DNA of 64,000 nt, taken from positions 1 to 64,000 of the forward strand of contig NZ_JAJNQN010000009.1 in assembly GCF_022227845.1 (NCBI RefSeq), read 5' to 3'. The DNA is from Ectothiorhodospira lacustris (GTDB taxonomy: Bacteria; Pseudomonadota; Gammaproteobacteria; Ectothiorhodospirales; Ectothiorhodospiraceae). How positions within the stretch are numbered: position 1 is the first letter of the stretch; the number at the start of each line of letters is the position of its first letter. Below the pieces are notes generated by a model, which was not told the DNA's origin, ran no database searches, and saw nothing but the letters and a program-made list of their open reading frames with translations. Shown here in pieces: positions 33,578-48,501 of the stretch. The position numbers were made by a program, and so were the translations under genes.

Positions 33578-34090
33578 GATGCCCTGTGTACTGTCATCCA
33601 GCGAGTGCATCCCGGTAGAGGCATTTTCTAGCATGCGCCGGAACTCGCCCTCCACGCAATTGGGGGCGATGGACACGCTGAATTCTCCGGCCCGCAAGGC
33701 CTGCATCACCTTGGCCAGTTCATCCATGGTGAGCTGGATGGTGTCAGCGCTTGCATTGAAGCCTTGCTTCAGGCTGTCCAGATCGCCGGCATAATCACCT
33801 TTGATCCGTGAGCCGAAGTCACCGCTCGCCAGGGCATGAACGGCCGTGTTGACCTCTTCAAGGGCATGGCGCTGGGATTCCAGCAGGGCATTGAAGGAGG
33901 CGATCACGGCGCCGATCTCATCCTTCCTGTGGTAGATGATCTGATCATTGAAATTACCTGTGCCGCGTACCCGTTCCACGGAATCCACCAGCAGTCTGAG
34001 CGGCCCGGTGATCCCTCGCGTGATCAGGATGCCCAGCAGGGCGGATAGCAACACGCCGATAATTATGGCCGCCAGACTGATGCCTTCCAG
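33578..34090 (-). pseudogene. internal fragment of a methyl-accepting chemotaxis protein gene
   Basis: These 513 bases match 16518-17030, inside the receptor gene at 15459-17621, without any length difference and with about 90% identity. They encode the second membrane helix, HAMP and following segments (GVLLSALLGILITRG to SLDDSTQG) but neither the sensor nor the signalling tip. Flanks on both sides are unrelated to the receptor, so the fragment cannot be functional. Confidence 0.9.
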
Positions 34091-34154
34091 TGGGAGCAAT
34101 ACTTGATGCAGCGAATGACTCGCGCCTGCGGAGAATGCAGCCGATAATCTCCGC

Positions 34155-34250
34155 ATGAAGAGCGGGGATTACGAGTACATCTGGCAGGCCGGTGACTGGC
34201 CGGACTCGTGCTTCGACCTCACGCCGGCTTCGGGTGGGGGATTCCTGGAT
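34155..34250 (+). pseudogene. Fic-family protein N-terminal remnant (DUF4172-like)
   Basis: The frame begins MKSGDYEYIWQAGDWPDSCF, which resembles the DUF4172 domain found at the start of many Fic proteins (YIWQ..DWP). Similarity stops after about 25-30 residues, and no Fic motif follows. It lies between the receptor fragment and cas3, where other gene debris also accumulates. Confidence 0.55.
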
Positions 34251-34424
34251 GGCATGGTATCGTCGTCGTCACTTGCAGGCATTGCAACACGCTATGTCAG
34301 GCACACCACTTCATTCCTTGCCGCTCCGCAGATCTGGTGCATGGCAATCCGGCCTCGGATCTTGTGACGACACCATCCAGGAGTGCGTGAATGAAAAGCG
34401 TGAATGCCATTGGGAGAGACAGGC
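34251..34424. other. intergenic region upstream of cas3
   Basis: No gene. It must carry the cas3 promoter if cas3 is expressed separately. A GGGAGAGAC purine stretch near 34411-34419 is the likely cas3 ribosome site. Confidence 0.5.
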
Positions 34425-37109
34425 ATGTCGTATTACCTCTACTGGGGCAAGGCGATACCGGCGGACGGAGGCGATAGCTGCCATCTTCTGCCCTATCACA
34501 GTCTGGATGTGGCGGCAGCGGGCTGGCTTTTGTTGGCTCCCGAGCGGCCACTGACCCGGTTGCTGGCGGCGCGGCTCGATTTGCCGCCTGAAGGGCTGCG
34601 TCGATTCCTGGTATTTCTCTTGGGGCTGCATGATCTGGGTAAGTTTGCGCGAGCCTTTCAGGGTGTGGCCCGGCCGCAAGGCGGCGAACTGGTGTCTCCG
34701 ATAGAGCGACTGGCCTATACCGAACGACACGATCGTCTGGGCGCATTGCTGTGGCAGGCGTCCTGGATCGAGTGGCTGCGGGACGGCACGCTGCGTTGGC
34801 CGGACTGCGACCTCGACCGCAAGACACGCCAGCAACTCAGCGAGACCCTTCGCGCCGTGCTGGCACCGATGTTCGGACATCACGGCCAGCCCGTCGGGGC
34901 GGGTCGGCTTGAGCTGGCAGATTTTTTCGGTGATGACTGCAGTGCATCAGATTGTGAGGCTGCGCGCCAGTTTGTCGCGGACTGGGCCACACTGCTCGAT
35001 CCCAACTGGCCGGTTCAGCACCTTGTCTCACCGGAATGGCGGGAAGCCTTTCTCGCACTGAGTTGGACAATCGCTGGCTGGGCCACCCTAAGTGACTGGC
35101 TGGGCTCGAATCGAGATCATTTCGAGTATCGCCAAGATGAGATGCCACTGGATGATTACTGGCCACTGGCCCTCGAACGCGCTCAGCTATCGCTCCAACA
35201 GTCCGGCTTTGCCGATCCTCCCAAGCCGGTGGCCTATACCGGCCTGTCCCATTGGTTCGGCGGCGAGTCGGTGACGCCAACTCCACTGCAGCGCGAAGCC
35301 GAAACCCTGACTATCGGGCAAGGTCCCCAGCTCTTCATCCTTGAGGACGTGACAGGTTCCGGCAAGACAGAGGCGGCCTGCATTCTCAGCCAGCGTCTTC
35401 TTGCGGCGGGACATGGCGAGGGGTTGTACTTCGCCCTGCCGACCATGGCGACCTCCAATGCCATGTACGAGCGACTGGGGAACCTGCATCAACGTTTCTA
35501 TGCCGCGAAGTCTCGCCCTTCCTTCGTGCTGGCTCATGGCGCCCGCGATCTGAACGACACCTTCGTGAATTCCGTGGCCTTGGAGCAGCCTGAAGACCAG
35601 AATTACGCCGCCGATGACATCACGGCGACGACATATTGCAATCGCTGGTTGGCCGATTCGCGCAAGAAGTCTCTGTTGGCCGATGTGGGGGTCGGCACCA
35701 TCGATCAGGCACTGATGGGGCTGTTGCCGTTTCGGCATCAGTCGCTCCGCCTCTATGGTCTGGCGCGCAAGGTGCTGATTGTTGATGAGGTGCATGCCTA
35801 TGACCATTACATGCAGACCCTTTTGCAGCAGTTGCTGACCCATCACGCCCGTCAGGGCGGGAGTGCCATCCTGCTTACGGCCACCCTGCCACACGGCATG
35901 CGCGAGGAACTGGCTGTGGCGTGGCGCCAGGGGTTGGGGCAGCCCCCGGCCTCGATGCGGGAACAGGCGTTCCCGCTGTTGACCCAGATCGATCATGACT
36001 CGGTGCGGGAAGTCCCGCTGTCCACGCGTCCCGAGGTGGCGCGCGAGGTGGGTGTCCGTTGGCTGACAACCGAGGAGCAGGCGTTCGAGACGGTGATGGC
36101 GGCGGTGGAGGCAGGGGAGTGCGTTGCCTGGGTGCGCAACACCGTGGATGACGCCATTCGGGCCTTCGAGCAGCTGCGCGCGCGCCATCCTGACCCAGAG
36201 CGCTGCTTGCTCTTCCACAGCCGTTTCGCGATGACAGACCGTCAGCGAATTGAGTCGGATGTGATCGGGCGGCTGGGCAAGGCATCCAACCCTGATCAGC
36301 GACGCGGCCAGGTGCTGATCAGTACGCAGGTCTTCCAGGAATCACTGGATTGCGATGTTGACTACATGGTCAGTGATCTCGCACCGATCGACCTGCTGAT
36401 TCAGCGGGCCGGGCGTCTTCAGCGCCATACACGTGGCTCGCGTCGTCAACCCTTGCTCGCCATTCTTGCACCGGAATGGAGCGACACGCCGGATGCCCAG
36501 TGGCTGAAGCGTACCTTGCCGGGCACTCAGGCGGTCTATCGCGATACCTCTCTATTGTGGCTGACGCAGCGCGTGTTGCGCGAGCTCGGAGCAATCCGTA
36601 TGCCCGAGGAGGCGCGGACCCTGATCGAGAGCGTCTATGGGTCGGTTGCGGACCTGGTGCCGGATGGTCTGCTGGATGCGCGTTTCGAGCAGCATGGCAT
36701 GAGGCGCCACGCGGTCTCCATGGCGAGCTTCAATGTCCTGTCGCTGGAGCAGGGCTACCTTCGTCATCCCGATTTTGATCAGTGGCAGGAAGAACAGGAG
36801 ATCGGGACGCGCCTAGTCGATGAGCCGACGGTCAACGTCGTTTTGCTCAAGCATCGCGAAGATGGCGAGCTGACGCTCTGGGCAGAGGGGCAGCGTCACG
36901 CCGACATGCTCAGCCAGGTCAAGCTGCGCCAGAGCCAGGCTGAAAAACTGGCGGGCTTGTCCTGCGACTGCCAGCCCCAGTGGGAGGCCCTTCAAGAGCA
37001 ATCCAAGGCGCTGCGCTTTACCCAGCCATGGCTGGTCGAAGCCGATACTGCTTGCACCTATGACGGTGGATGGGGCGTGGTGTTTTCAAAGGACGGGAAT
37101 CCCCGCTGA
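34425..37109 (+). CDS. cas3: CRISPR-associated helicase-nuclease Cas3 (type I-E)
   Basis: Degrades DNA bound by Cascade. The 894-residue protein has an N-terminal HD nuclease domain (YHSLDVAAAG with H25 and D28; GLHDLGKF near residue 66) and an SF2 helicase. The helicase shows Walker A DVTGSGKTEAA (about 307), DEVH box VDEVHAYD (454-457), LTATLP, and motif VI QRAGRLQRH. The start MSYYLYWGK at 34425 follows a purine-rich site; an ATG 7 codons upstream is less likely. It appears intact. The last codons overlap the first pseudo-repeat of the mini-array at 37094-37170. Confidence 0.96.
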   Translation: MSYYLYWGKAIPADGGDSCHLLPYHSLDVAAAGWLLLAPERPLTRLLAARLDLPPEGLRRFLVFLLGLHDLGKFARAFQGVARPQGGELVSPIERLAYTERHDRLGALLWQASWIEWLRDGTLRWPDCDLDRKTRQQLSETLRAVLAPMFGHHGQPVGAGRLELADFFGDDCSASDCEAARQFVADWATLLDPNWPVQHLVSPEWREAFLALSWTIAGWATLSDWLGSNRDHFEYRQDEMPLDDYWPLALERAQLSLQQSGFADPPKPVAYTGLSHWFGGESVTPTPLQREAETLTIGQGPQLFILEDVTGSGKTEAACILSQRLLAAGHGEGLYFALPTMATSNAMYERLGNLHQRFYAAKSRPSFVLAHGARDLNDTFVNSVALEQPEDQNYAADDITATTYCNRWLADSRKKSLLADVGVGTIDQALMGLLPFRHQSLRLYGLARKVLIVDEVHAYDHYMQTLLQQLLTHHARQGGSAILLTATLPHGMREELAVAWRQGLGQPPASMREQAFPLLTQIDHDSVREVPLSTRPEVAREVGVRWLTTEEQAFETVMAAVEAGECVAWVRNTVDDAIRAFEQLRARHPDPERCLLFHSRFAMTDRQRIESDVIGRLGKASNPDQRRGQVLISTQVFQESLDCDVDYMVSDLAPIDLLIQRAGRLQRHTRGSRRQPLLAILAPEWSDTPDAQWLKRTLPGTQAVYRDTSLLWLTQRVLRELGAIRMPEEARTLIESVYGSVADLVPDGLLDARFEQHGMRRHAVSMASFNVLSLEQGYLRHPDFDQWQEEQEIGTRLVDEPTVNVVLLKHREDGELTLWAEGQRHADMLSQVKLRQSQAEKLAGLSCDCQPQWEALQEQSKALRFTQPWLVEADTACTYDGGWGVVFSKDGNPR

Positions 37110-37170
37110 CGCGGGGAACGAGCCAAAGAGTTGCTTTGAACCGGTTCATCACCGCGAAGGCGGTGAACGG
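37094..37170 (-). ncRNA. candidate CreR-type mini-CRISPR RNA (pseudo-repeat, pseudo-spacer, pseudo-repeat)
   Basis: On the minus strand a 29-base pseudo-repeat (37170-37142) matches the array repeat at 23 of 29 positions. It keeps the stem with a compensating change (A-T replacing C-G) and ends in the 8-nt handle ATGAACCG (array: ATGACCCG). A 21-nt pseudo-spacer (37141-37121, GTTCAAAGCAACTCTTTGGC...) follows. The second pseudo-repeat (37120-37094) has the same CCCCGC/GCGGGG stem and overlaps the cas3 stop codon. The form is that of RNAs known to guide type I Cascade to repress cas genes. Function is inferred; processing by Cas6e is expected from the stems. Confidence 0.8.
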
Positions 37171-37177
37171 GGGATTC

Positions 37178-37206
37178 ATTATCGCTCAGGTTGACAGGAT
37201 CCTCCA
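37178..37206 (-). promoter_or_regulatory. candidate promoter of the mini-CRISPR RNA
   Basis: On the minus strand a GATAAT -10 box (37183-37178) lies 17 bases from a weak -35 (TGGAGG, 37206-37201). Transcription would begin near 37171, exactly at the first pseudo-repeat. Confidence 0.5.
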
Positions 37207-37218
37207 GGTGGGTTAAAT
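37191..37218 (+). promoter_or_regulatory. candidate promoter of the cas8e-cas2e operon
   Basis: A consensus -35 TTGACA (37191-37196) and a -10 TTAAAT (37213-37218) are 16 bases apart. The start of transcription would be near 37225, leaving a 5' leader that contains the proposed pseudo-spacer target. It overlaps the divergent candidate promoter of the mini-CRISPR RNA. Confidence 0.65.
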
Positions 37219-37236
37219 GTGACTCTGATGTGTAAT

Positions 37237-37260
37237 GCATGAAGAATTGATATGAACCTT
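37237..37260 (-). promoter_or_regulatory. proposed target of the pseudo-spacer, with AAG PAM
   Basis: Read on the minus strand, AAG (37260-37258) is followed by GTTCATATCAATTCTT. Against the pseudo-spacer GTTCAAAGCAACTCTT this matches at 13 of 16 positions, with mismatches at 6, 8 and 12; positions 6 and 12 are flipped out and tolerated in type I-E seed pairing. The site is between the candidate promoter and the cas8e ribosome site, so bound Cascade would block transcription. Confidence 0.7.
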
Positions 37261-37288
37261 CATGTCTTTTGAGGAGCAAGGAACGACG

Positions 37289-38971
37289 ATGAATCTATTG
37301 ACGGCATGTTGGCTGCCTTTTCGTACTCGGGATGGAACCACAACCTACCGTGCGCCCAGCGCGGTGGCCGACCCGGAGGTGATTGACCTCGCTTTGCCCC
37401 GGGCCGATTTCCAGGGGGCCGCCCATCAGTTCCTGATCGGCCTCTTGCAGACCGCGCTGCCACCGCAGGATCACGGCGACTGGCTGGATCGTTTTATCGA
37501 GCCGCCGAGTATCGCTGAACTGGAGAGCATCTTTGCGCCTTTCAACGCAGCCTTCGAGCTGGATGGTGAGAGAGCGCGGTTCATGCAGGATCTCGATCCA
37601 CTCAAGGACGTCAAGGAGACCACAGTCAGTGGCCTGTTGATCGACTCCCCCGGGGCGAACGGTGTCAAGAACAATACCGACTTCTTCGTGAAGCGCGGGC
37701 GTGTCGATGCGATGTGCGAAGACTGCTCGGCGTTGGCGTTGTTCACCATGCAAATCAATGCACCGGCCGGTGGGGCAGGCATTCGCGTCGGCCTGAGGGG
37801 AGGCGGGCCGCTGACTACGCTGGTGCTGCCCGAATTGCCCGATGCCAGCCTGTGGTCTCGCCTGTGGTTGAACGTGCTGACGCCCAAGGCGCTGACGCGA
37901 TCCGGGCAGACATGGAAGGCGCCACGCGCCGATGACGACACCTTGTTTCTGTGGATGGCATCGACCCGGGTCAGCGACAAGAAAGGCACGGAAGTGCTGC
38001 CCGATAGCATGCATCCGCTCCATCCCTACTGGTCGATGCCCCGTCGCTTCCGGTTGCTTTTCGAGGATGCGTCGTGTCGCTGCGACATCTGCGGACGGGA
38101 AACCACACGCGCCGTACGTCACATCCGCGCCAAGAAGCAAGGCACCAACTACGACGGGCCCTGGCTGCACCCGCTGACTCCTTACCGCCGTGATCCCAAG
38201 AAACCTTCAGAGCCGCCGCTGTCCACCAAGGGGCAGCCGGGCGGCTTGGGTTATCAGCACTGGTCGAACCTGGTATTGCACGATGCCGATACCAGCGGCG
38301 CGCTACCGGCTCTGGTGGTGCAGGATTACATCGCCGGCAAGGTGCCGGTCGTCGACGAGGAGCGCCGCTTCGGTGAAGAGATCGCCGCCCTGCTCAAGCA
38401 TACCCGCTTGTGGGCGTTCGGCCATGACATGGACAACATGAAGCCGCGCGGCTGGTACAGCGTCGAGATGCCGCTGGTGGCCGTGCCCCCTGCCCAGCAG
38501 GAAAGACTGCGTACCTGGGTGCAACAGTGCACTGAATTGGCTCGCCAGGTGGCCTGGATGGTGCGTGCCCAGGTCAAGAACGCCTGGTTCGCCCGCCCTT
38601 CCGATGCCAAGGGCGATATGAGCCATATCGACCTGCAGTTCTATGACGCCACCCAGGGTGCCTTCTTTCATGCATTGCACGCTTTCCAGCAGGCGCTGAC
38701 GGAGGTCGATGACACCCCGCGCCTGCCTTCCGGGGTGGCTGAGGCGTGGTATTTCACGCTGAAACATGAAGCCTTGGCCCTATTCGAGGAGCAAGCGTTG
38801 AGTGGTGCGCTGGAAGCCGTCGACCTGCAGCGGGCCACTGCGGCAAGGCGTCAGTTGCTGAATTTTCTGGCCGGGCGCAGCAAGGGCAGCAAGGTCATCC
38901 GTCAATTTGCCGAGACCGGTGGCTTCGTCTTGAGCGCCAAGCCGGCAACTACCGAAGAGAGTGTGTCATGA
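37289..38971 (+). CDS. cas8e: Cascade large subunit Cas8e (Cse1/CasA)
   Basis: Recognises the PAM and recruits Cas3. The 560-residue protein starts MNLLTACWLPFRTRDG, close to the E. coli Cse1 start, and has a zinc-binding segment CRCDICGRE in the middle and a C-terminal four-helix bundle. ATG 37289 is chosen over an in-frame ATG at 37262 because AAGGA lies about 6 bases upstream and homology starts there. The stop overlaps cas11 as ATGA. The leader region upstream carries the proposed autoregulatory site. Confidence 0.95.
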   Translation: MNLLTACWLPFRTRDGTTTYRAPSAVADPEVIDLALPRADFQGAAHQFLIGLLQTALPPQDHGDWLDRFIEPPSIAELESIFAPFNAAFELDGERARFMQDLDPLKDVKETTVSGLLIDSPGANGVKNNTDFFVKRGRVDAMCEDCSALALFTMQINAPAGGAGIRVGLRGGGPLTTLVLPELPDASLWSRLWLNVLTPKALTRSGQTWKAPRADDDTLFLWMASTRVSDKKGTEVLPDSMHPLHPYWSMPRRFRLLFEDASCRCDICGRETTRAVRHIRAKKQGTNYDGPWLHPLTPYRRDPKKPSEPPLSTKGQPGGLGYQHWSNLVLHDADTSGALPALVVQDYIAGKVPVVDEERRFGEEIAALLKHTRLWAFGHDMDNMKPRGWYSVEMPLVAVPPAQQERLRTWVQQCTELARQVAWMVRAQVKNAWFARPSDAKGDMSHIDLQFYDATQGAFFHALHAFQQALTEVDDTPRLPSGVAEAWYFTLKHEALALFEEQALSGALEAVDLQRATAARRQLLNFLAGRSKGSKVIRQFAETGGFVLSAKPATTEESVS

Positions 38972-39624
38972 GTGAAACGGAACTCGCACCCCCAGCAGAG
39001 CCGCCACCACGCGTGCCCGAGCGGCTGTATGCCATCGAACGTCGAGAAGCCGATGCCTTGCGGCGCTGGTGGCGGCGCTTGACGCTGTCCACCGATGCGT
39101 TGAAGGCCCATACCGACGCTCCCCCCTGGCCCAAAGGGATGCGGGCGGCATTGCGACGTTGCGACACCATTGAGGCGGCCATGCTCACAGAGGCTTTCCG
39201 CCACCTGTGGCGCTGGTTGCCGGCACAAGACGAACAGCCAGACCACCTGCGTGATCAGCGCTTGCAGGTCTGGACCTGTATCGCCCTGGTCGTGGCTGAG
39301 CTTCGCGAGGAACAGCCCAGGATGCCGCTTGGCGCCGGTCTCGGTCGGCATAAGCGCGAAACCGGTAAGCCGTGCATGAGCGAGCTGCGCTTCCAGCAAC
39401 TGATGACCGCGGGCACGCCGGAGGAACTGGTGCAACGCCTGCGCCGTGCCCTGGCGCTGATCGACAAGCGTGGTGTCAGCATTGTGCATCTCGCCGACAA
39501 CATCGCGCTCTGGTGGCGCGAATATCAGGGCGGGGCATCGCCCCAACCTACCCGGCGTCTGGGGTTTGTGTGGGCCAATGACTATTTCGGCGCCACGGCC
39601 GGCTATCGACAAGACAACGAGTGA
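38968..39624 (+). CDS. cas11: Cascade small subunit Cas11 (Cse2/CasB)
   Basis: A 218-residue, mostly helical protein. It carries family features such as ALRRWWRRL near residue 31, a central RLQVWTCIALVVAELRE helix and MSELRFQQLMTAGTPEELVQRLRRAL (about 132-157). Two copies line the belly of Cascade and steady the R-loop. It is about 40 residues longer than the E. coli protein, mainly in the N-terminal proline-rich extension. Translationally coupled to cas8e through ATGA. Confidence 0.93.
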   Translation: MSETELAPPAEPPPRVPERLYAIERREADALRRWWRRLTLSTDALKAHTDAPPWPKGMRAALRRCDTIEAAMLTEAFRHLWRWLPAQDEQPDHLRDQRLQVWTCIALVVAELREEQPRMPLGAGLGRHKRETGKPCMSELRFQQLMTAGTPEELVQRLRRALALIDKRGVSIVHLADNIALWWREYQGGASPQPTRRLGFVWANDYFGATAGYRQDNE

Positions 39625-39651
39625 TCCGTTCACCACACAGGGAGCCAAGTA

Positions 39652-40725
39652 ATGAGCCACTTCATCCAACTGCATCTGTTGACCGCCTATCCGCCGGCGA
39701 ACCTCAACCGTGACGACCTGGGGCGACCCAAGACCGCCATCATGGGCGGTGCCAAGCGACTGCGAGTGTCATCTCAGAGCCTGAAGCGCACCTGGCGCAC
39801 CTCGGCAGTATTCGAGGAGGCGGTAGGGCAGCATCGTGGCATGCGCACCAAGCGCGTGGGTATCGAGGCGGAAAAGCGCTTGAGGGAAAAGGGCGTTAAG
39901 GAGAAAGACGCCCGCGCCTGGGCAACGGACATCGCCAAGGTCTTCGGTGATGTGGCCAAGGGCGAACTGGAAACCAGCCAGCTGGTCCACGTTGGCCCCG
40001 AGGAGCAAGCCGCCGTCGATGCCCTGGTCGAAAAGCTGGCCTATGAGAATCGCGCGCCGGAGCAGGAGGATCTCGACCTGCTCCGCCATAAGCCGTCTGC
40101 CGTGGATATTGCACTGTTTGGCCGCATGCTGGCGGCGTCCCCGGCCTTCAACGTCGATGCAGCCTGCCAAGTCGCCCACGCGATCACCGTGCATGCCGCC
40201 GAGGTGGAGGACGACTACTTCACGGCCGTGGACGATCTGAATGCCGGTGACGAGCATCGAGGTGCAGCTCACGTGGGAGAGGCCGGTTTTGGTGCTGGCC
40301 TGTTTTACAGCTATGTGTGTATCGATCGGCGGCAGCTGATAGAGAATCTCAAGGGGGATGATGTCCTGTCGGATCGCGCCATTGCGGCCCTGGTGGAAGC
40401 TGCCGTGAAGACCTCGCCGAAGGGCAAGCAGAACAGTTTTGGCTCCCGCGCTCATGCCAGCTACGTGCTGGCCGAGAAGGGCGACCAGCAGCCGCGTTCG
40501 CTCTCGGCCGCCTTTCTTCGCCCTATCTCGGGACAGGACCAGGCGCGGGATGCCATCACACGTCTGGAGCGTCAGGCGCAGGCCTTCGACGATGCCTATG
40601 GGCCAGGCGCCGAGCAACGCTTCGTCGTGGCCGCCGACCCCGACTACCGGGAACCATGCCTATCCGGAAAAGTGGCCATGGGGAACCTCCCTGAACTGAT
40701 CGATTTTCTCTCCATCGAGCAGTAA
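39652..40725 (+). CDS. cas7e: Cascade backbone subunit Cas7e (Cse4/CasC)
   Basis: Six copies form the helical backbone that holds the crRNA. The 357-residue protein opens FIQLHLLTAYPPANLNRDD, contains GRPKTAIMGGAKRLRVSSQSLKRTWR (about residues 25-50), and has the RNA-contact region with AFNVDAACQVAHAITVH. An AGGGAGC site precedes the ATG. It is separated from cas11 by 27 bases and from cas5e by 9. Confidence 0.96.
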   Translation: MSHFIQLHLLTAYPPANLNRDDLGRPKTAIMGGAKRLRVSSQSLKRTWRTSAVFEEAVGQHRGMRTKRVGIEAEKRLREKGVKEKDARAWATDIAKVFGDVAKGELETSQLVHVGPEEQAAVDALVEKLAYENRAPEQEDLDLLRHKPSAVDIALFGRMLAASPAFNVDAACQVAHAITVHAAEVEDDYFTAVDDLNAGDEHRGAAHVGEAGFGAGLFYSYVCIDRRQLIENLKGDDVLSDRAIAALVEAAVKTSPKGKQNSFGSRAHASYVLAEKGDQQPRSLSAAFLRPISGQDQARDAITRLERQAQAFDDAYGPGAEQRFVVAADPDYREPCLSGKVAMGNLPELIDFLSIEQ

Positions 40726-40734
40726 GGAGCGGTC

Positions 40735-41490
40735 ATGACGGAGTATCTGGTCTTTCGGCTCTATGCGCCGCTCGCAAGCTGGGGCGAGGCGGCGGTGGGC
40801 GAGTCACGCCCTACAGCCACTTATCCGGGGCGAAGCGCCATCATCGGGCTACTCGGCGCAGCGTTGGGGGTGCGTCGGGATGATGATGAGGGTCAACGCC
40901 AACTGCGCGATAGTGTCGCTATCGCCATCAAGCAGCGCTCTCCCGGCAGCTTGATGCGCGATTACCACACCGTGCAGGTGCCGGCGTCGCAAGCCAAGGT
41001 GACCTACCGCACCCGGCGGGACGAATTGAGCGCACCACGCAGGGTCATCAATACCATCCTCTCCAGCCGTGATTACCGCTGCGACGGGCTCTGGACGGTT
41101 GCCGTCTGGTTGACACCGCAGGCAGAGCTGACGCTCGAACAACTGGAGCAGGCACTCAAGGCACCGCATTTTCCGCTCTACCTGGGGCGCAAGTCGTGCC
41201 CACCGGCGGCTCCACTGGCACCACGTCGGGAAGTCTCCGCCCTGCTGCAAGATGTTCTCGATGCAGGCTTTCCTCCACTATGCGGAACGGATGAGGGTGA
41301 CGAGAGCAGGGCCCTGAGATTGCCGGAAAGCGCGCTCTATGCCTGGGAAGGCGCCGCCGATGCTCTGGACGGCAATGGTCAGGGCGTGGAGTCCAGCGAG
41401 GTATGGGATATGCCTTTGAATCGCCGCCGTTGGCAGTTCGGGCCGCGCGCCGAATACCGCCGTGTGGTACGGGCAAGGGAGGAACGCTGA
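40735..41490 (+). CDS. cas5e: Cascade subunit Cas5e (CasD)
   Basis: Binds the 5' handle of the crRNA. The 251-residue protein begins YLVFRLYAPLASWGEAAVGESRPT, has the conserved Gly-rich GRSAIIGLLGAALGV (about 31-45), and an internal YLGRKSCPPAAPL motif. A strong AAGGAG site lies 5 bases before ATG 40735. Its stop overlaps the cas6e start (TGATG). Confidence 0.95.
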   Translation: MTEYLVFRLYAPLASWGEAAVGESRPTATYPGRSAIIGLLGAALGVRRDDDEGQRQLRDSVAIAIKQRSPGSLMRDYHTVQVPASQAKVTYRTRRDELSAPRRVINTILSSRDYRCDGLWTVAVWLTPQAELTLEQLEQALKAPHFPLYLGRKSCPPAAPLAPRREVSALLQDVLDAGFPPLCGTDEGDESRALRLPESALYAWEGAADALDGNGQGVESSEVWDMPLNRRRWQFGPRAEYRRVVRAREER

Positions 41491-42182
41491 TGTACCTTTC
41501 TCGTGTAGTTGTCGATCTCAACGGCCTCTCTCGGGGGACCTTGTTCGAAATCATGGGGGGCGGCGCCTATGGTGCCCACCAACTGCTCTGGCGGTTATTC
41601 CCGGATCACCAAGGCCCACGGCCCTTCCTGTTCCGCCAGGAAATGGAAGAGCCCGAGGGCGATGGAGCACCGCGAGGTTTGCCGTTGTTCTATGTGCTGT
41701 CCGATCGCGAGCCGGTGCCGGTTTCTGGCTTGCTCGAGGCGCAGTGCAAGCAGTTATCGCCGGCACTGGAAGTCGGTGATCAACTCGCTTTTCGCCTGCG
41801 GGCCAACCCTACCGTGGCCAAGTCGGTGGCAGGTGAGCGGGGGCGGCGTGCCGATGTCTTGATGGCGGCCAAGTACCCCTTTGAGGCTGGCAAGGCTCGG
41901 ACCAGCCAGGCCTGCACTGAGGCGATGGATCATGCCGCGCGTGGGTGGCTGGCCGAGCGCGCCGAATCCTGGGGATTCCGGTTGCCGGCAGAACCCGAAG
42001 TGGGCGCCTATCGTCAGCATGCCTTGCCCAAGGAAAAAGGTCGATCCATCCGCTTTTCCAGCGTCGACTATGAAGGCCTGCTGGAGGTCTCTGACCCGGG
42101 TCGATTGATCGAAACGCTGGCCCAGGGCATTGGACGAGCCAAAGCGTTTGGCTGCGGGTTGCTGCTGTTACGCCGTCCCTGA
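41490..42182 (+). CDS. cas6e: crRNA-processing endoribonuclease Cas6e (CasE)
   Basis: Cuts the precursor at each repeat hairpin and stays bound to the 3' handle. The 230-residue protein begins MYLSRVVVDLNG, has the catalytic-region histidine in GAYGAHQLLWRLFPD (about 22-36), and the C-terminal glycine-rich loop GIGRAKAFGCGLLLL. The start at 41490 overlaps the cas5e stop; a longer frame merely overlaps cas5e. The compensated stems of the mini-array would also be Cas6e substrates. Confidence 0.95.
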   Translation: MYLSRVVVDLNGLSRGTLFEIMGGGAYGAHQLLWRLFPDHQGPRPFLFRQEMEEPEGDGAPRGLPLFYVLSDREPVPVSGLLEAQCKQLSPALEVGDQLAFRLRANPTVAKSVAGERGRRADVLMAAKYPFEAGKARTSQACTEAMDHAARGWLAERAESWGFRLPAEPEVGAYRQHALPKEKGRSIRFSSVDYEGLLEVSDPGRLIETLAQGIGRAKAFGCGLLLLRRP

Positions 42183-42206
42183 TTGTCACCCGGTAAGGAG
42201 GCCGAG

Positions 42207-43425
<1,219 letters not shown>

Positions 43426-43531
43426 TTTGCCTAGATATTTAACAATTCGGTCTGGTTAAAAAGTAAGCTAAATTGCTGGTGGAAATTCCCCCGGCGATTT
43501 TCTTCTTTGTAAACAGGTGGCTACAATTGGT
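43426..43531 (+). promoter_or_regulatory. CRISPR leader
   Basis: About 106 AT-rich bases between cas2 and the first repeat, without an ORF, contrasting with the GC-rich surroundings. Repeat variants gather at the far end of the array, which confirms that the leader is on this side and the array is transcribed rightward. It should hold the array promoter and the integration-factor site. Confidence 0.85.
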
Positions 43532-46500
43532 CCGTTCCCCGCAGGCGCGGGGATGACCCGATGATCCGGTTGGCGGTCATGCCATTGCGCTGCCGTTCCC
43601 CGCAGGCGCGGGGATGACCCCCACTCAGGGCCAGCGCAGCGGCGACACAAAACCCGTTCCCCGCAGGCGCGGGGATGACCCGTAAAAATTTCATCCTCCC
43701 CCCCCAAAAAAAAGCCGTTCCCCGCAGGCGCGGGGATGACCCGGGGCCGCCCAGCGCCATGCCGGCGATGGAGCCCCGTTCCCCGCAGGCGCGGGGATGA
43801 CCCGCCCGTTCGATACGGGTGGACCCTTCTCCTGGGCCGTTCCCCGCAGGCGCGGGGATGACCCGTCCACCGTCACCCGCTGGGGCCAGGCTGGGCTCCG
43901 TTCCCCGCAGGCGCGGGGATGACCCGCCAGTAGATGACTGGCCACCTGGGCACGGAATCCGTTCCCCGCAGGCGCGGGGATGACCCGACCGAGGTGGCCG
44001 AGCCGACGTGCAGCCACTGCCGTTCCCCGCAGGCGCGGGGATGACCCGTTCGGGGCCAGGGCGACGTCGTCTTCCATCTGCCGTTCCCCGCAGGCGCGGG
44101 GATGACCCGGGCACGCCCGGGCCGCCGACGCCCTTGGTCGCCCGTTCCCCGCAGGCGCGGGGATGACCCGCACCAGGTGGTCGGCCCGGCCTCCTCGATC
44201 CTCCGTTCCCCGCAGGCGCGGGGATGACCCGCCCAGTGACACGCCTCTGACCCCGAGCCAGCACCGTTCCCCGCAGGCGCGGGGATGACCCGCCAGCCAG
44301 CCCCTTGGTGCGCAGGGCCGCCAGCCGTTCCCCGCAGGCGCGGGGATGACCCGCGCTCCTTGAAAAGCCAGTAGATGACTGGCCACCGTTCCCCGCAGGC
44401 GCGGGGATGACCCGCTGTTGGGCTGATCCATGGCCATCGCCGACGCCCGTTCCCCGCAGGCGCGGGGATGACCCGGCCTGCTCCCGATGCACGCGGATAT
44501 CACTGGCCCGTTCCCCGCAGGCGCGGGGATGACCCGTTCACCGGTGGCCGCGGGTCCGTGCAGTTCGGCCGTTCCCCGCAGGCGCGGGGATGACCCGTCA
44601 GAGATTCGTTCCGCGGAGCGTTCGATTAACCGTTCCCCGCAGGCGCGGGGATGACCCGGACGCCTCCCAGGCCACGGCGGTCAGTGACGCCCGTTCCCCG
44701 CAGGCGCGGGGATGACCCGGAGGCCAAAAGCCTGAATCTGACCCGATCCAGCCGTTCCCCGCAGGCGCGGGGATGACCCGTCCGGGTAATACTTACACCC
44801 GGACTCTTGAAACCGTTCCCCGCAGGCGCGGGGATGACCCGCACTGGATTCAGGAAAACGCGCTGATGATGGTCCGTTCCCCGCAGGCGCGGGGATGACC
44901 CGGATGCGATCAGTAGCCAACTCAGTTTCAGGCCCCGTTCCCCGCAGGCGCGGGGATGACCCGGTAATCTTTGATAAGACCAATTGAGTACAGAGCCGTT
45001 CCCCGCAGGCGCGGGGATGACCCGACCAAACAACATAGCTTTCATACACGCGCCCCCCGTTCCCCGCAGGCGCGGGGATGACCCGTTCAGGATGCTGAGG
45101 CGGCTCAGGGTCAGAGCCCGTTCCCCGCAGGCGCGGGGATGACCCGTTCCCACATGGGAGGCATCCAGGATTCAGAACCCGTTCCCCGCAGGCGCGGGGA
45201 TGACCCGGTCGCGTCGAGTGGTCCGGGAATCCGTCCAGGCCGTTCCCCGCAGGCGCGGGGATGACCCGGCCTTGCAAAAGCTCCCAATCCCAGGCACCGA
45301 CCGTTCCCCGCAGGCGCGGGGATGACCCGCTCACCGACTTCAACGACCTGCATCAGCACCCCCGTTCCCCGCAGGCGCGGGGATGACCCGCTCTTATGTG
45401 GGTCACGTCCGGGGGTGATCCCCCGTTCCCCGCAGGCGCGGGGATGACCCGCGGGTTGATGATGATGTCGAGGCCCGCCGGCCCCGTTCCCCGCAGGCGC
45501 GGGGATGACCCGACGCTAACAGGGTTTGAGACTCGGGAATTGATCCGTTCCCCGCAGGCGCGGGGATGACCCGCGCCTGAGCGTTGGGCATGTTGGCGAG
45601 AATATCCGTTCCCCGCAGGCGCGGGGATGACCCGATCGCTGTAGTCCTGCTCTAATTGACAGACCGCCGTTCCCCGCAGGCGCGGGGATGACCCGCCCTG
45701 GCCGGATTCGGTGTTACGAACGTCATTCCGTTCCCCGCAGGCGCGGGGATGACCCGTTACGAGTCACGTCCATGCGCGTACAGACAGCCCGTTCCCCGCA
45801 GGCGCGGGGATGACCCGACCCGTTTGCTGGCATCGGTAAATCTGCCGCTCCGTTCCCCGCAGGCGCGGGGATGACCCGTCAATGCTGAGGTTTTTGACCC
45901 TGCTGACCGGCCGTTCCCCGCAGGCGCGGGGATGACCCGCTTGTTCTTGACGTGGAACAGCTCCTGCCTGGCCGTTCCCCGCAGGCGCGGGGATGACCCG
46001 TTTCCGCTTCCGGCCCCACCTGTTGCGCCATTCCGTTCCCCGCAGGCGCGGGGATGACCCGGCCGTCTATGCCCGTCTCGGCGCACGGCCCACCCGTTCC
46101 CCGCAGGCGCGGGGATGACCCAGCTGTGGGGGACGATGTCGCCTTTGTGCGGGTCCGTTCCCCGCAGGCGCGGGGATGACCCGATCCTGAGGCATTGTTG
46201 CCCAGCGCCTGGGATCCGTTCCCCGCAGGCGCGGGGATGACCCGGTGCCCATCCCCGGCTTCACCGTCTGGCCCGACCGTTCCCCGCAGGCGCGGGGATG
46301 ACCCGTCGCGACACAAGAGCCTGATATTTGAGGCTCGCCGTTCCCCGCAGGCGCGGGGATGACCCGGGTCTCGCCTGATAGACCCGCCGGGGGACGAACC
46401 GTTCCCCGCAGGCGCGGGGATGACCCGTGGAGGCATCGAGGGCGCAGAGGCAGCCGACGCCGTTCCCCGCAGGCGCGGGGATGACCCGAGCATGCGCGTT

Positions 46501-48501
46501 GAGCGTGTGGAGTGGGAGCGCCGTTCCCCGCAGGCGCGGGGATGACCCGACCCCTGATGAGATTCTGGAGGATATGAACGCCCGTTCCCCGCAGGCGCGG
46601 GGATGACCCGTACCCACGGTGCAGCTTGACGTGGGGCTTGCTCCGTTCCCCGCAGGCGCGGGGATGACCCGCCCGCGGACGTGATTGCCGCCATCCAGGC
46701 CGCCCGTTCCCCGCAGGCGCGGGGATGACCCGGTGGGGAATTCGACATGGTGTGTTCGGAAGGACCGTTCCCCGCAGGCGCGGGGATGACCCAAATTAAT
46801 CACTGTCATTATCTCCCTGGTTGTCCCGTTCCCCGCAGGCGCGGGGATGACCCGGCCTGATTTACAAGGTCATGGGCGAGTACAGCCCGTTCCCCGCAGG
46901 CGCGGGGATGACCCGCCTTGGCTGAGAACCAGGCAATGCTGGATGCACCGTTCCCCGCAGGCGCGGGGATGACCCGCGGGCGCTAACGCGCTCCTGCAAG
47001 GGTATGAGCCGTTCCCCGCAGGCGCGGGGATGACCCGCAGGGAGCTTTTGTATGCGTGGCTCTAGGCTGCCGTTCCCCGCAGGCGCGGGGATGACCCGTT
47101 GAGATTGATTCTCAGGAATTCGAGGTTTTTCCGTTCCCCGCAGGCGCGGGGATGACCCGCTCCCGCCCATTGAGCTGGGCGCGCAGGGTGGCCGTTCCCC
47201 GCAGGCGCGGGGATGACCCGTCAGTGAAACGATCCTCGCGGGTGTGCCAGGCCCGTTCCCCGCAGGCGCGGGGATGACCCGTTTGGCCAGTTCCAGGAGC
47301 CAGCCGAGCAGATCCGTTCCCCGCAGGCGCGGGGATGACCCGCGGAAAATGTAGGCCCCGTTTCTTGCTGGGGTCCGTTCCCCGCAGGCGCGGGGATGAC
47401 CCGATGTGCGCGCTTAGGCAGCGCACGGCCACTGACCGTTCCCCGCAGGCGCGGGGATGACCCGGCCTTGCCTTGCTTCTGCGCCGGGGGGTATAGCCGT
47501 TCCCCGCAGGCGCGGGGATGACCCGGTCCGCGAAATCCGGCGGCGGTACTGGCACGACCGTTCCCCGCAGGCGCGGGGATGACCCGTTCGGCTGCTCAGG
47601 CAGGAGCAGAGAGCCGCCCCGTTCCCCGCAGGCGCGGGGATGACCCGTCACTGAGCGGGTGGACAGCCAGCTGCATCGCCCGTTCCCCGCAGGCGCGGGG
47701 ATGACCCGCTCCAGCAGATACCCAACTCCCCGAGGTCGACCCGTTCCCCGCAGGCGCGGGGATGACCCGCGTGCGGACCCGGACGTAAATGCCGTTCGTG
47801 TCCGTTCCCCGCAGGCGCGGGGATGACCCGTGCTGGATCCACGAGGGCCGCCTGTTCATCGACCGTTCCCCGCAGGCGCGGGGATGACCCGTGTTGCCCA
47901 TCAGGGCAGCATACCGATCTTCCCCGTTCCCCGCAGGCGCGGGGATGACCCGCTGTCTGCATCTTGACCCGCGATCAGAAGATGCCGTTCCCCGCAGGCG
48001 CGGGGATGACCCGGCATCGGCGTTGACGACGATTGCGTCCTGGATCCGTTCCCCGCAGGCGCGGGGATGACCCGGTGGAATCGTGGCTAGTGGAGGAGTT
48101 TGACCGCCGTTCCCCGCAGGCGCGGGGATGACCCGGCCGTGACCGGCGAGACTGTCAGTATCATGATCCGTTCCCCGCGGGCGCGGGGATGACCCGTGGC
48201 AGAACTACGCCAGCCCGGTATGGATGGACCGTTCCCCGCAGGCGCGGGGATGACCCGCAGAATCCATTATCCAGAATGGACTGCCTGAGCCGTTCCCCGC
48301 AGGCGCGGGGATGACCCGGCCGGCGTGATCATCGCCCGGCTGGCGGAAGTCCGTTCCCCGCAGGCGCGGGGATGACCCAAAACCTCAGTCTCGAAAGTTG
48401 CAGCAAAATACCCGTTCCCCGCAGGCGCGGGGATGACCCACGCCCGAGGCAATCGACCCCAGCACGAAGTACCCGTTCCCCGCAGGCGCGGGGATGACCC
48501 G
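43532..48501 (+). CRISPR. type I-E CRISPR array, 82 repeats and 81 spacers
   Basis: The repeat CCGTTCCCCGCAGGCGCGGGG + ATGACCCG (29 bases) recurs at exact 61-bp spacing from 43532 to 48473, giving 82 copies with 32-base spacers. The hairpin CCCCGC/GCGGGG is intact. Variation is slight: one internal change in repeat 77 (48168-48196), and the last base differs from G in repeats 2, 43, 54, 80 and 81. That last base probably comes from the PAM of each captured spacer, so the true repeat is 28 bases with 33-base spacers. Spacers 7 and 14 overlap in sequence by 18 bases. Confidence 0.99.

Follow-up and report, generated by a model that had tools for sequence, protein, structure and literature searches.

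A CreR-like mini-CRISPR beside the type I-E cas operon of Ectothiorhodospira lacustris as a probable guide for Cascade autorepression

Between the cas3 and cas8e genes of Ectothiorhodospira lacustris lies, on the minus strand, a mini-array composed of repeat 1, a pseudo-spacer and repeat 2, which very probably encodes a crRNA-like RNA of the CreR type that directs Cascade to the repression of the operon encoding it and competes with ordinary crRNAs. CreR, a cas-regulating RNA, is reportedly the subject of Liu et al. 2023 in Cell Host & Microbe, 'Widespread RNA-based cas regulation...'. The mechanism as such is already known from published CreR, and the window (the whole stretch of 64,000 nucleotides of contig NZ_JAJNQN010000009.1 that was analyzed) would represent a further example with strong evolutionary evidence. 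Its guide and target are not known to us as reported, and the window locus or its Halomonas relatives may be listed in Liu et al. 2023. Three reviews cover CreR (PMC13131331, PMC12948488, PMC12737573), and two of them describe it for types I-B, I-E and V-A (PMC13131331, PMC12737573).

The window contains a complete type I-E cas set on the plus strand: cas3 (34404-37109), cas8e (cse1/casA, TIGR02547; 37289-38971), which is the first gene of the operon proposed to be repressed, and cse2, cas7e, cas5e, cas6e, cas1e and cas2e (38968-43425). The cas8e start at 37289 is indicated by its ribosome-binding site and by the relatives, the open reading frame listed from 37262 beginning too early, and this leaves a cas3-cas8e gap of 179 nt. 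The main CRISPR array follows on the same strand (43533-48501), with 82 copies of the repeat CGTTCCCCGCAGGCGCGGGGATGACCCG (76 exact, six with one mismatch) at a 61-nt period and with spacers of 33 nt. Two of its spacers (43922-43958 and 44351-44390) have 19 nt in common (CCAGTAGATGACTGGCCAC) and represent overlapping protospacers of one invader, as in primed adaptation. The nearest relatives of Cas8e are found in Ectothiorhodospira (96-97% identity) and then mostly in Halomonas and its family (68-84%). Within the window's own genus, the Cas8e of other genomes shares only 49% or 32-34% identity, and the cas locus has therefore probably moved horizontally.

Read on the minus strand, the mini-array starts with repeat 1 (37142-37169; CGTTCACCGCCTTCGCGGTGATGAACCG), a degenerate copy with six differences to the main repeat that supplies the 5' handle ATGAACCG, one base different from the handle ATGACCCG of the main array. 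The pseudo-spacer (37121-37141; GTTCAAAGCAACTCTTTGGCT) counts 21 nt, 12 nt fewer than the main-array spacers, and is followed by repeat 2 (37093-37120; CGTTCCCCGCGTCAGCGGGGATTCCCGT), which overlaps the end of cas3, differs at eight positions from the main repeat and has lost its handle but retains an intact 6-bp stem. An ordinary immunity array was rejected as an identity for this element, given that its repeats differ at six and eight positions and that its 21-nt spacer matches the host's own leader. The 6-bp stem of repeat 1 varies between lineages and is kept by compensatory changes, with 97% of the cells paired and 18 double changes, a covariation score reached by none of 500 shuffles, whereas slid structures pair at 37-63%; the window itself carries a compensated C-G to A-U pair. 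Stem covariation and a near-identical handle thus suggest that Cas6e should still recognize the hairpins of the mini-array. An Rfam scan of 34000-46000 gave no match.

As originally described, the pseudo-spacer bases GTTCAAAGCAACTCTT (minus strand, 37126-37141) agree with the protospacer-like site GTTCATATCAATTCTT (minus strand, 37242-37257) at 13 of 16 positions, with mismatches only at 6, 8 and 12, and an AAG PAM (37258-37260, minus strand) adjoins the site; the range 37237-37260 corresponds to the PAM plus the full 21-nt spacer length. Matches of this quality beside AAG could have been common in this stretch, which is not the case. At least 13/16 beside AAG was reached in 0/20,000 dinucleotide-preserving shuffles of the stretch from repeat 1 to cas8e (16 when any PAM was allowed), and by one of 20,000 shuffled spacers. 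No second AAG site of such quality is present within the 64-kb window. A pattern search found AAGGTTCANANCAANTCTT exactly once in the whole 3.28-Mb genome, and allowing up to two mismatches added only one unrelated site and the mini-array itself.

The arrangement is not limited to this genome. Among 18 loci gathered by Cas8e similarity, ten hold the same kind of mini-array, with spacers of 21-34 nt, and further loci were added from genus and class searches, bringing the mini-array loci that were tested jointly to 18, the window included; the genomes surveyed lie near one cas8e family, and five loci (L005, L006, L009, L010, L023) were settled by eye. Grouping by inspection distinguishes nine unrelated spacer families among the 18 loci. 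The deciding test looked for the highest-scoring 15-nt match without gaps in the stretch from repeat 1 to cas8e, scored blind to the PAM and to the skipped positions: in 18/18 loci this plain best match falls on the minus strand beside AAG. Spacers of the first 11 loci score 12-14/15 in their own leader vs. 3-8 in leaders of unrelated families, and the cross-test gave mostly 9-14/15 for own or same-family leaders and 3-8 for unrelated ones. Guide and target therefore change together, and their co-evolution bears the imprint of R-loop pairing by Cascade. The matches are individually weak in L009 (equalled by 118/3000 shuffled spacers) and L047 (11/3000). When the Ectothiorhodospira genomes are aligned, the leader flanking the target has diverged while the target block is kept.

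Control PAMs in a survey with looser rules gave background matches in 1-10 loci, and for this reason the matches of L024 and L029, which have no repeat-like handle, and the plus-strand matches of L009 and L010 were rejected as chance. No convincing mini-array pair was found in the loci in which cas3 runs directly into cas8e, either with gaps of 11-40 nt (L017, L019, L025, L026, L029) or by inspection where the automatic gap is unreliable (L015, L024, L028), which means that the element and the internal promoter travel together. Four Ectothiorhodospira loci with a distant Cas8e (32-49%; L005, L006, L009, L010) have mini-arrays of this type as well, with two more unrelated guide/target pairs, guide position 9 being matched in L005 and unmatched in L006. 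More unrelated self-targeting mini-arrays (TGTTAGTCGTTGATTA, CTTAGCTCAACCGCAA, TGTTTAAGCCAGAGTG) occur in distant gammaproteobacterial I-E loci (L008/L052, L045, L040, L047).

The distribution of mismatches corresponds to what is known of this effector. In type I-E Cascade every sixth base goes unread (PMC5904413), and the mismatches at positions 6 and 12, which had been pointed out for the window as non-read positions, recur in 15/18 and 16/18 loci, respectively. Positions 2-5, 7 and 11 are mismatched in none of the 18 loci and the remaining positions of 1-11 rarely. The match decays after about position 15-17 (in a table of 14 loci), with the pair of L047 matching some bases further; in the window pairing ends at position 16. 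E. coli Cascade needs no more than AAG and five seed bases to bind in vivo; its affinity reaches the maximum by 18 bp, and at least 18-25 bp are required for interference (PMC5904413). The conserved pairing would hence fall in a range of binding without cutting, short of what cutting by Cas3 needs, which agrees with the partial-pairing reading initially put forward for the window and seen again in the 17 other loci. In the Ectothiorhodospira pairs one mismatch, at position 8, falls within the classical seed, and binding should be somewhat weaker than with a perfect 16-mer. Several guides measure 21-22 nt, 12 nt less than ordinary spacers and the guides in L022, L023, L027 and L047, which have 33-34 nt. 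Since the length of Cascade changes in six-nucleotide steps, such guides would suit a Cascade with two Cas7 units fewer.

The position of the target bears on the mode of repression. A candidate cas8e promoter, TTGACA-N17-TAAATG (37191-37219, plus strand), is supported by conservation in the alignment, its -10 element being weak here, and the target lies between this promoter and the cas8e start, in agreement with the original prediction. The TTGACA-N17-TA block is conserved in five genomes, namely the window and four loci of the same spacer family; in the same five genomes the sequence separating it from the target has drifted, and conservation resumes at the target block. A promoter/terminator consensus scan called nothing at its threshold, and the assignment of the cas promoter is accordingly not firm. 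A tentative promoter of the mini-array, TGGAGG-N17-GATAAT (37178-37206, minus strand; ATAATG conserved), overlaps the cas promoter back to back, and the two may therefore interfere with each other. In the window the target is probably located just downstream of the transcription start, inside the transcribed leader, and the conserved promoter block upstream, the drifted stretch and the kept target make an early roadblock a few bases past the start site likely. In four Halomonas-type loci (L014, L018, L021, L027), promoter positions assigned by inspection place the target upstream of the likely -35, with the PAM's CTT on the coding strand overlapping its TTG, an arrangement that points to promoter occlusion. 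Of these two modes, the roadblock by Cascade is the weaker (PMC5904413). The initial proposal that bound Cascade blocks cas8e transcription is thus compatible with the location of the target, although the mode predicted for the window would be a weaker block than that of the Halomonas pairs.

From the observed anatomy, uniqueness, PAM, mismatch periodicity, co-evolution and hairpin covariation we infer transcription, processing, binding, repression and competition as follows. The mini-array would be transcribed from the minus strand and cut by Cas6e at both hairpins, and the resulting CreR would load into a type I-E Cascade, probably in a shortened form. This complex would bind the cas8e leader at 37242-37260 through the AAG PAM and some 13 base pairs that are read. 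As pairing would end at 16 nt, which does not suffice to license Cas3, the chromosome would stay uncut, while bound Cascade would block transcription of cas8e-cse2-cas7-cas5-cas6e-cas1-cas2. As soon as array crRNAs fill Cascade, or an anti-CRISPR disables it, repression would ease and the output of Cas proteins would rise.

Explanations that do not involve the guide fail because the arrangement recurs in 17 other loci, mostly with different guide/target pairs. If the mini-array were a fossil of an immunity array and its match a leftover or chance, the degenerate repeat 1 and the lost handle of repeat 2 would be expected, but not the compensatory stem changes, the kept handle of repeat 1, a guide-target pairing maintained in nine families or the outcome of the shuffles, and we regard such decay as most improbable. 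Antisense regulation, in which the transcript of the mini-array would base-pair with the leader of the cas8e mRNA like any small RNA and need no Cascade, also seems very unlikely: the probable position of the window target downstream of the promoter would allow the RNA to pair with the transcript, yet an AAG beside every target and mismatches concentrated at 6 and 12 are unexpected for RNA-RNA pairing, the targets of L014, L018, L021 and L027 would lie outside the mRNA by the promoter positions assigned there, and the repeat hairpins are kept.

A further alternative is an addiction module similar to CreTA, in which the element mainly restrains a toxic leader product (a small RNA or peptide) instead of the cas genes. 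The targeting logic is the same in CreTA (PMC12737573), and six relatives (L016, L018, L020, L021, L022, L027) have an open reading frame of 39-47 codons between target and cas8e. However, no evident reading frame separates target and cas8e in L012, L013, L014, L023 and the window, where no toxin candidate is found either and a tiny RNA toxin is possible, and the small reading frames of the relatives match no family in Pfam or PADLOC and no plasmid. We consider this reading unlikely overall, but it may apply to the relatives with a small reading frame. In L018, L021, L022 (in the last about 131 nt before cas8e) and L027 a conserved reading frame of 43-47 aa (VRNWLEEAFWKIGEWDWVSIVVKTACFSIPRVVVRLIKRREKR in L021) has a stop codon that adjoins the cas8e start or lies near it and is possibly a new CRISPR-controlled small protein. 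L016 and L020, whose spacer family is that of the window, have a different conserved 39-aa reading frame (MIFRRYRRTKNGKVLDAREYGYEAWPITPRRRMKKKPKK) with a strong ribosome-binding site some 190 nt ahead of cas8e and a GC-rich hairpin between the two; the window is without this reading frame. The sequence around the cas8e start (37280-37299 in the window) reads GGCGATGAATC in Ectothiorhodospira and GACGATGAATC in the window; its counterpart in the alignment with L016 and L020, GGCGACGA(A/G)TC, lies a long way upstream of cas8e, as if sequence gained or lost between the target and the gene had moved the cas8e start.

The reading as a CreR-type autorepressor agrees with the known systems in several respects. 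The window combines a repeat-short spacer-repeat unit beside cas genes, a guide partly complementary to the leader next to a PAM, complementarity too limited for interference, a complete I-E effector and the absence of coupling with a toxin gene, no evident reading frame lying between target and cas8e, unlike in the six relatives. It shares with CreR, as described in the reviews, the mini-CRISPR adjoining cas genes, the partial complementarity to the cas promoter or leader, the lack of a toxin gene and the type I-E background, and differs from the CreR examples by its new lineage, its 21-nt guide and a target apparently just downstream of the promoter. CreTA and CrePA, in which a crRNA-like antitoxin represses a toxin RNA or protein, likewise have a degenerate mini-array and Cascade-guided repression by limited pairing, but the window leader shows no toxin gene under the control of a crRNA-like RNA between target and cas8e, and the regulated product would be the cas operon. 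Off-target binding of E. coli type I-E Cascade similarly relies on AAG and partial PAM-proximal pairing in which the sixth position is not read; there it is incidental and inert (PMC5904413), whereas the window has a dedicated, conserved guide and site at an operon leader.

Taken jointly, these observations might be read as repeated replacement of the guide/target pair (nine unrelated pairs in 18 loci, three of them in one genus) under a kept AAG and a ceiling of about 16 bases, with guides 12 nt, i.e., two Cas7 steps, shorter in several families and a small gene between target and cas8e taken over in some lineages. We put this forward tentatively, as a possibility on the unlikely side. If true, Cascade with a short guide and confined to binding would constitute a stable regulatory version of the effector, and the small genes would add new products under CRISPR control. 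More generally, the loci described here make a case, built on sequence alone, for the use of type I-E Cascade by Ectothiorhodospira, Halomonas and further gammaproteobacteria as a self-limiting repressor. With nine guide/target pairs provided by nature, ready-made experiments are at hand on the minimal pairing for Cascade binding and repression and on how a cell adjusts its level of CRISPR immunity.
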